From Cohnella algarum (GTDB taxonomy: Bacteria; Bacillota; Bacilli; Paenibacillales; Paenibacillaceae), in contig NZ_JAFHKM010000002.1 in NCBI RefSeq assembly GCF_016937515.1, positions 3,219,001 to 3,283,000 on the forward strand: a stretch of 64,000 nt of DNA. The letters are read 5' to 3'. Below are positions 33,077-33,891 of the stretch, piece after piece (position 1 is the first letter of the stretch; each line of letters opens with the position of its first letter). The translations under genes and the position numbers were made by a program. The notes below the pieces were generated by a model, which had not been told where the DNA came from, did not search any database, and saw nothing but the letters and a program-made list of their open reading frames with translations.

Positions 33077-33112
33077 GCGGCATGATTTTCCCCGGGCATG
33101 CCACGGGTCGCA

Positions 33113-33164
33113 AAAGGAGTTGTCCCAAAGGTCGTTAACCCGGCCTTGGGGACAGCTCCTTTTT
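33113..33164 (+). terminator. intrinsic terminator after lipoprotein gene
   Basis: GGAG-TTGTCCC-AAGG pairs with CCTT-GGGGACA-GCTCC around a 12-base loop, followed by TTTTTT. Confidence 0.88.
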
Positions 33165-33271
33165 TGGCGAAGCCTCCGCCCCCCGAATTTCGACGAAACA
33201 GAGTCTCTGGACATCCGTTCCCGCCCTGCAAAATTTGGCTCCCATCCGACCTGGAGAAGTCAACCGGCAAG

Positions 33272-33298
33272 CCTCCGGCATACCTTACGGTATGGAGG
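33272..33298 (+). promoter_or_regulatory. hairpin sequestering the SemiSWEET ribosome site
   Basis: CCTCC (33272-33276) and CATACC (33279-33284) can pair with GGAGG (33294-33298) and GGTATG (33289-33294 region) around a TTAC loop. The GGAGG is the ribosome site 8 bases before ATG 33307, so the folded leader would block translation. Confidence 0.6.
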
Positions 33299-33306
33299 CG
33301 AATGAC

Positions 33307-33585
33307 ATGGTATTTGCTTTGTTTCAGCTTGTCGGAGGCATCATTTTGGCGTTCGGCTGGATTCCGCAAATCGCGCAAATCCTGAAAACGAAATCGGTCC
33401 GGGATTTGAATCCGAAAACGTTCCGGCTTTTGTTTATCGGAATCGGCTTGATGGAGGTTTATGCCGTCCGGCTGGCGACCCAGGGGGTGGGCTACGCCTT
33501 TCTCGTTACGAACAGCTTGTCGCTGCTTCTGATGCTGTTTATTCTTGTACTCATCTTTAGGTACAGGAACACAAAAGAAAAATAG
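33307..33585 (+). CDS. SemiSWEET sugar transporter (PQ-loop, MtN3 family)
   Basis: 92 aa with three membrane helices, the normal size for a bacterial SemiSWEET. The PQ motif lies in GWIPQIAQILKTKSVRDLN, and a conserved Asn sits in helix three (LVTNSLSLLLM). SemiSWEETs dimerise and carry sugars down their gradient. ATG 33307 is chosen because the protein then starts in the first helix (MVFALFQLVGG) with GGAGG 8 bases upstream; ATG 33292 is less likely. The ribosome site is inside a hairpin, and the stop codon lies inside the terminator stem of a predicted RNA on the other strand. Both points suggest tight post-transcriptional control. Confidence 0.9.
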   Translation: MVFALFQLVGGIILAFGWIPQIAQILKTKSVRDLNPKTFRLLFIGIGLMEVYAVRLATQGVGYAFLVTNSLSLLLMLFILVLIFRYRNTKEK

Positions 33586-33713
33586 ACCGCCCTCGCCCAA
33601 AGGATGCGGTCTATTTCTGCCGTTAATTCCTATAAGCCACCGCCCTCAAGAGCGGCTATTGCAGAGGGAGTCGTGTTCGCCGCACGGCTCCTTTTACATC
33701 ATAAGCCTTTTCT
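33575..33713 (-). ncRNA. predicted antisense small RNA opposite the SemiSWEET 3' end
   Basis: On the minus strand a sigma-A promoter would start a transcript near 33713. It contains a stem-loop (GGAGCCGTG against CACGACTCC) and a second paired region (AGCC..GGCT). It ends at a long perfect stem, AAATAGACCGC/GCGGTCTATTT (33580-33616), followed by TTTTTCTTTT. The T run is on the minus strand only, so the terminator serves this RNA. No convincing reading frame is seen. The tail overlaps the stop codon of the SemiSWEET gene. The layout resembles the convergent antisense RNAs of type I toxin loci such as txpA/ratA. This explains the 306-base gap between 33586 and 33891. Confidence 0.6.
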
Positions 33714-33719
33714 GCGTCA

Positions 33720-33748
33720 AGTATACCACCGAATCTTTTTCGTTTCAA
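33720..33748 (-). promoter_or_regulatory. sigma-A promoter of the antisense RNA
   Basis: On the minus strand TTGAAA (33748-33743), a 17-base spacer and TATACT (33725-33720). Confidence 0.7.
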
Positions 33749-33891
33749 TCCACGCTTCACGCAAGAACCTCTTCATATTCGGCTCCCCGGACCCGGTTTC
33801 CGGCGCAAATTTTACAATAATGAGGATCTTCCGGAAAGCATCTATTGTATAATTGGGAAAAAGATCCGCCCGAAACGGAGGTTGGCGTCGC

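Follow-up and report, generated by a model that had tools for sequence, protein, structure and literature searches.

Why does a structured RNA with its own promoter lie beneath the 3′ end of a SemiSWEET-like gene? The locus is part of the window, by which we mean the whole stretch of 64,000 nucleotides of Cohnella algarum DNA that was analysed. An earlier note on it had proposed that the gene is controlled in the manner of type I toxin-antitoxin loci, through a hidden ribosome site and a convergent antisense RNA. We consider it highly probable (roughly 0.85) that the RNA is a BsrG/RatA-type antitoxin whose Hol_Tox gene has been lost, and that the 3′ end of the SemiSWEET gene has been joined to the antitoxin unit at its outer edge.

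The SemiSWEET-like gene and its leader

The protein agrees with SemiSWEET in its size (the ~90 amino acid class) and in its PQ motif, while its profile scores all lie below cut-off: NCBIfam SemiSWEET_2 gave 34.9 bits (1.3e-8; cut-off 80), PQ-loop 21.6 bits (cut-off 22), and MtN3_slv was likewise under its cut-off. A promoter consensus scan found no sigma-A-like promoter for the gene. The strong terminator-like hairpin 3′ of the upstream solute-binding-protein gene, as predicted by folding, would separate it from that operon.

The GGAGG ribosome site had been placed inside a hairpin by the earlier note. The hairpin exists (−11.5 kcal/mol when folded alone) but differs from the minimum-energy fold of 33235-33335, in which GGAGG is paired further downstream. 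The site is mostly paired in either fold. Its concealment is mildly unusual only, being equalled by 11 of 200 flank shuffles, and the ribosome sites of L039, L047 and L076, SemiSWEET loci without the RNA, are concealed to about the same degree. A descent of the hairpin from a toxin leader was rejected: local alignment to 10 toxin leaders gave scores that were reached by 10–155 of 200 shuffles, the lowest count (10/200, L026) being one among ten tests.

Table 1 Features of the SemiSWEET/antitoxin RNA locus (positions in the window).
Feature	Position	Strand	Basis or detail
Strong terminator-like hairpin, 3′ of upstream solute-binding-protein gene	33111..33167	+	−41.2 kcal/mol
Imperfect hairpin with ribosome site GGAGG (33294-33298)	33272..33298	+	fold
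SemiSWEET-like CDS	33307..33585	+	92 aa + stop; profile matches, relatives up to 75% identical
Putative remnant 3′ half of BsrG-type toxin mRNA, expected SemiSWEET 3′ UTR	33570..33690	+	BsrG 133-259
Putative toxin-derived SemiSWEET tail T-K-E-K-stop	33571..33585	+	complement of RNA terminator T-tract; junction ~33568-33571
Putative orphan type I antitoxin RNA, ~137 nt, both ends inferred	33577..33713	−	covariance model, covariation
RNA terminator, overlaps SemiSWEET stop codon	33578..33617	−	−21.0 kcal/mol, T-rich tail; helix 3 of model
Sense-strand terminator hairpin + TTTT (toxin mRNA's terminator)	33667..33695	+	−20.5 kcal/mol; last helix of BsrG model
RNA promoter: −35 TTGAAA 33748-33743, −10 TATACT 33725-33720, TG before −10	33720..33748	−	scan + alignment

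A structured RNA on the opposite strand

The minus-strand sigma-A promoter described in the earlier note is present, with a spacing of TTGAAA-17-TATACT and a −35 that matches at 5/6 positions. Taken alone it is not above chance (one such site in 4 kb vs 1.8 in shuffles); of 31 aligned homologues of the RNA, the window counted, 25 have TATANT at the corresponding position. The structured RNA of about 138 nt that the note predicted also held up. A free energy of −48.4 kcal/mol is predicted for the fold of 33716-33577 (z −2.17), and 7 of 200 shuffles are equally low. Within the family, 17 of 29 pairs are altered on both sides and 96.1% of cells pair, values neither of which is reached by any of 500 shuffles of an alignment that was itself fitted to the model. 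Helix 3, the terminator, has 7 of its 11 pairs altered on both sides. As the note had it, the SemiSWEET stop codon (33583-33585) lies inside the terminator stem, and the long T-rich tail is found on the minus strand only.

The plus-strand terminator was overlooked in the note and is also absent from the consensus-scan list. Its position implies that a sense mRNA would traverse most of the RNA gene.

A side observation concerns the −35 region (33742-33755, minus strand), which contains GCGTGGATTGAAAC, the 3′ end of the repeats of the genome's CRISPR-like arrays (14/14). Five of the 105 RNA copies described below agree with this repeat end at no fewer than 12 of its 14 positions, and 20 shuffles of each never exceeded 11. 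With up to two mismatches, one match per 64 kb is expected by chance (1.26). Arrays are also common in genomes without the element: 12 of 25 genomes whose RNA copies lack it have at least 16 repeat-end copies, so that the presence of arrays in this genome says little on a CRISPR link of the −35 region.

The RNA family and its Hol_Tox toxins

With the RNA as query, homologues were found in 79 of 197 genomes at E ≤ 0.01, its own genome included. A review had already noted txpA/bsrG-like systems in a Paenibacillus species (PMC6562991); homologous RNAs are far more widespread in the group than that one species. Loci were fetched down to about E 5e-5, weaker ones being left and some congeners added, so the copies were found by likeness to the window RNA. 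Covariance matches of at least 40 bits in these loci, plus L003 (26.3 bits), gave 105 copies. The count excludes L129, L140, the second weak match in L081 (35.5 bits), weak opposite-strand matches, duplicates of the L063 copies in L068 and L071, and L152, which was found later. Close to the family consensus, the window RNA scores 124.2 bits, the 4th best of the 105 copies, against a model trained on 23 sequences of which it is one. From its score and the covariation we take the RNA to be a member of a covarying antitoxin-RNA family of the Paenibacillaceae and allied families.

What lies opposite these RNAs? In 87 of the 105 copies it is a Hol_Tox-like match of at least 20 bits, to a profile built from 12 of the peptides that it afterwards recovers; four copies have a weaker match, and 14 have none, namely that of the window and 13 more from 11 other genomes. 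Pfam Hol_Tox (PF16935) was above cut-off for all five peptides tested. In 84 copies the Hol_Tox-like ORF stops at a fixed +8 from the model end, which is the position of the SemiSWEET stop; the other three of the 87 have their stop elsewhere or none. A minority of the 84 toxin ORFs are shortened or damaged (e.g. L012, L131, L135). The window thus shares with the Hol_Tox modules of the Paenibacillaceae the RNA family and its place relative to a stop codon, and differs from them in having no Hol_Tox gene.

Rfam models agree with the kinship to txpA/ratA and bsrG that the earlier note had recognised. Six of eight homologous loci searched are above gathering for BsrG (RF01412), among them L002, an intact module of the same genome (63 bits; RatA, 24.1 bits); L009 (52.6 bits) and L152 (26.5 bits) fall below the cut-off of 55. 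In the window the Rfam search of a broad stretch returned nothing relevant, and the matches came with a shortened stretch. The plus strand matches positions 133-259 of BsrG only, a 5′-cut match to the 3′ half of the model (24.8 bits, cut-off 55, E 1.9e-4), and the corresponding 3′ stretch of the intact L002 scores similarly (24.1 bits). The minus strand matches RatA (RF01776) at 29 bits (cut-off 49). Judged from the family score and from a stop codon placed as in the toxin-bearing copies, the locus has a predicted convergent antisense RNA gene overlapping the 3′ end of the sense gene. It resembles bsrG/SR4 and txpA/RatA of Bacillus subtilis in its convergent, 3′-overlapping antisense RNA with own promoter and terminator and in the 3′ hairpins of the toxin mRNA. 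Unlike them, it has neither the toxin ORF nor the 5′ half of the mRNA, and it is the SemiSWEET ORF that takes the toxin stop.

Probable toxin loss and the proposed fusion junction

No Hol_Tox profile match was found in three frames of the 300 nt before the RNA 3′ end, and the whole-genome profile search for PF16935 had no match inside the window. By sequence, then, this is an orphan type I antitoxin: promoter, fold and terminator are kept and the toxin ORF is absent. A Hol_Tox-like toxin could still be encoded in a different frame, or the SemiSWEET C-terminus could itself be one, its putative third transmembrane helix (TM3) and basic tail being toxin-like in general character. Given the missing profile matches and the alignment of TM3 with ordinary SemiSWEETs, we regard this as very improbable.

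The C-terminus itself points to the origin of the junction. The window protein ends RYRNTKEK*, whereas other SemiSWEETs stop at or soon after RYR or a similar sequence; the closest relative (75%) ends LYRNRD*. The DNA of this tail is absent from the other SemiSWEET loci. At their SemiSWEET 3′ ends L157 and L158 agree with L076 and L074, two Paenibacillus loci, and on this agreement the family was taken to be Paenibacillaceae. Its codons ACA AAA GAA AAA TAG align with toxin codons such as CAC AAA AAG AAA TAG (in L032 and L036, AACACAAAGAAATAG), and toxins end ..KKK* or NTKK* at this place. In toxin-bearing copies the last toxin codons (e.g. AAA AAG AAA TAG) are the complement of the antitoxin terminator T-tract. 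Keeping the antitoxin therefore keeps these codons, and the SemiSWEET frame ends on the toxin stop. The limits of conservation agree: in the 14 toxin-less copies, the window alike, it sets in at about −4, in the T-tract, whereas in toxin-bearing copies it extends upstream. What is retained is thus the antitoxin transcription unit. As the final codons of the toxin double as the terminator of the antitoxin, toxin loss with the antitoxin kept leaves a ready graft point.

We propose that a deletion or recombination linked the SemiSWEET 3′ end to the antitoxin transcription unit at its outer margin; by comparison, the SemiSWEET frame enters the last codons of the toxin and uses its stop. The RNA terminator has no plus-strand T run, and the SemiSWEET mRNA should consequently extend to the terminator that once served the toxin (33667-33695), having inherited the toxin 3′ UTR. 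The two transcripts would have about 120 nt in common, and wherever both are produced RNase III may cut their duplex, as with RatA and txpA. The junction is seen in one genome, where a misassembly is possible; database figures for this genome are 98.8% completeness and 4.89% contamination. Phage and plasmid collections gave no match at E 1e-5 that would suggest such an origin.

SemiSWEET adjacency and the question of control

A model scan of 47 SemiSWEET loci found the RNA next to one of them, that of the window, the best score elsewhere being 14 bits. These loci comprise 30 from a search of family genomes plus earlier ones, with L054 (a partial match) excluded, and at least six pairs among them look like one record from two collections. 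SemiSWEET is itself patchy, being found in 17 of 197 genomes at E ≤ 0.001 and in 63 of 394 family genomes at E ≤ 1e-20 (loci for 30). The downstream GDPD gene has relatives in eight other congeneric genomes at E ≤ 1e-60; a model scan of the fetched flanks of these eight loci, of which 1.5 kb upstream were read, found no RNA copy near them. A match in L142 about 1.2 kb upstream of GDPD was rejected: its 18.2 bits cover the terminator part of the model only, close to the chance matches on the opposite strand of the window locus (17.8 bits), and it looks like an ordinary terminator.

The earlier note had seen in the locus an evolved control of SemiSWEET. It had asked what gene lies opposite the RNA in related genomes, and had held that unrelated toxins opposite every homologue, with the SemiSWEET adjacency confined to this genome, would speak against its proposal. 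The covariance search comes near to that result, with Hol_Tox-like ORFs facing most homologues and the adjacency in a single genome; the exception is the 14 of 105 copies that lack a toxin. Evolved control is therefore not borne out. Antisense action on the SemiSWEET mRNA is plausible as a by-product of the fusion, and in our opinion the coupling of the two genes is such a by-product rather than an evolved circuit.

The captured RNA might nevertheless truly control SemiSWEET, pairing with the last codons and the 3′ UTR so that RNase III cuts the duplex, with the hidden ribosome site limiting translation, as in bsrG/SR4. The perfect complementarity by position, about 120 nt, is within the 100-140 bp given in a review for B. 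subtilis type I systems (PMC6562991); RNA promoter and fold are intact, and the SemiSWEET ribosome site is mostly paired. We think control of this kind unlikely in view of the solitary adjacency and of the RNA-less SemiSWEETs that also hide their ribosome sites. Equally doubtful to us is the more general claim that, through one terminator fusion, an antitoxin leftover came to regulate a metabolic membrane gene in cis as an antisense RNA. If true, decay of toxin-antitoxin modules would be a route to new antisense circuits, and the other toxin-less copies, beside genes for cytochrome-oxidase subunit IV, an AraC-family protein and others, would represent various stages.

Why the RNA is still there

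Following toxin loss, the RNA may have survived for one of several reasons: it may be a harmless leftover, it may serve the gene as terminator, or it may be a reserve antitoxin for an intact module 77 kb away. The last possibility would make it a second, trans-acting antitoxin for the Hol_Tox module at C2:3175 kb of the same genome. Its predicted duplex with that toxin mRNA has −227 kcal/mol (cognate RNA, −294; 100 shuffles, mean −83, best −102), 24 consecutive nt are identical between it and the cognate RNA, and 15 nt of continuous pairing sufficed in E. coli zor/orz (PMC11264685). RNAs of other species, however, score better on the same mRNA (L009, −245; L010, −233), so that the affinity is a trait of the family, and in zor/orz sequence differences where the RNAs pair may keep the loci from cross-talk (PMC11264685). 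We judge a trans role quite unlikely.

Alternatively, the segment may be kept only to end transcription on both strands, the RNA being not made or not used. Two strong hairpins are consistent with this, as are the promoters of the other 13 copies that lack a toxin. The family place is occupied by a −10-like hexamer in two of them (L066, L073), both with a poor −35; in L088, L094, L096 and L132 it is 22 nt further in, L088 having a good −35; and L070, L110 and L122 have none. The window stands apart, with both promoter hexamers at the family place and an RNA so highly placed in the family, and we hold a role in termination only to be possible, if somewhat improbable.

Among the 14 toxin-less copies that of the window is, as far as hexamers and model score (4th of 105, from a training sequence) can tell, the best preserved. 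This state also tells against the toxin-loss explanation, the promoter being shifted, poor or missing in the majority of the other copies without a toxin. Recent toxin loss or, equally, continuing use would explain the well-kept promoter and RNA.

Other toxin-less copies

In none of the other 13 copies lacking a toxin was a neighbouring ORF (at least 45 aa, up to three per locus) found to end on the toxin stop codon. A cytochrome-oxidase subunit IV gene adjoins the RNA in L094, L096 and L103 (L094 tested: Pfam COX4_pro, 60.4 bits), and an AraC-family gene in L083 and L104 (L083 tested). The neighbours in L073 and L070 had no Pfam match in the 130 residues tested; we take that of L073 for a solute-binding protein. 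Between the oxidase-gene copies, compared as three pairs, the RNA is 81-93% identical and the next 60-400 nt 93-96%, which suggests that the RNA is no better conserved than adjacent DNA. Together with the few promoters in place among the 13 copies, this favours decay in general. Three other pairs of toxin-less copies have one unalignable flank and are thus uninformative on constraint. As the same oxidase gene stands beside the toxin-less RNA in all three genomes, the toxin may already have been missing at this place before they diverged.

Relation to known orphan antitoxins

Orphan type I antitoxins have been published before. Orphan orz of E. coli likewise keeps its RNA gene and promoter after toxin loss; orz-only loci occur in ~30% of E. 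coli genomes, and expression was detected by Northern blot in MG1655 (PMC11264685). It differs in that orz is another RNA, which pairs with the toxin 5′ UTR, and in the available part of the paper no newly arrived gene is described as joined to the overlap. NikS/IsoB of Helicobacter pylori is similar as an RNA opposite the small AapB ORF, probably of a degenerated type I module, that acts on other genes; its targets are several mRNAs encoded elsewhere, whereas the candidate target in the window is a gene fused in cis (PMC8322730, PMC8687705). Searches of open-licence papers on type I modules, Hol-Tox and SemiSWEET antisense showed no antitoxin RNA fused in this way; new relative to that literature is the fusion to SemiSWEET on the toxin stop. 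The locus illustrates how an antisense RNA can come to lie beneath an unrelated gene, and the toxin-less copies offer a natural series in which orphan antitoxin RNAs may be seen as relics, back-up antitoxins or new regulators.

Additional modules

Further modules were seen during the scans. In a congener, L063 has three tandem Hol_Tox/RNA modules about 350 bp apart (1144-1961), each above gathering for Rfam BsrG. Two more lie in the genome of the window. L003 (G000:C2:2212992-2213088) is a decayed Hol_Tox module with a stop within the toxin, of which 79 nt match the RNA model. L152 (G000:C2:3081997-3082114) is a divergent small-toxin/RNA module that scores 50 bits with the model and, as given above, is below cut-off for BsrG; a match to the pemK RNA family lies about 0.5 kb from it.
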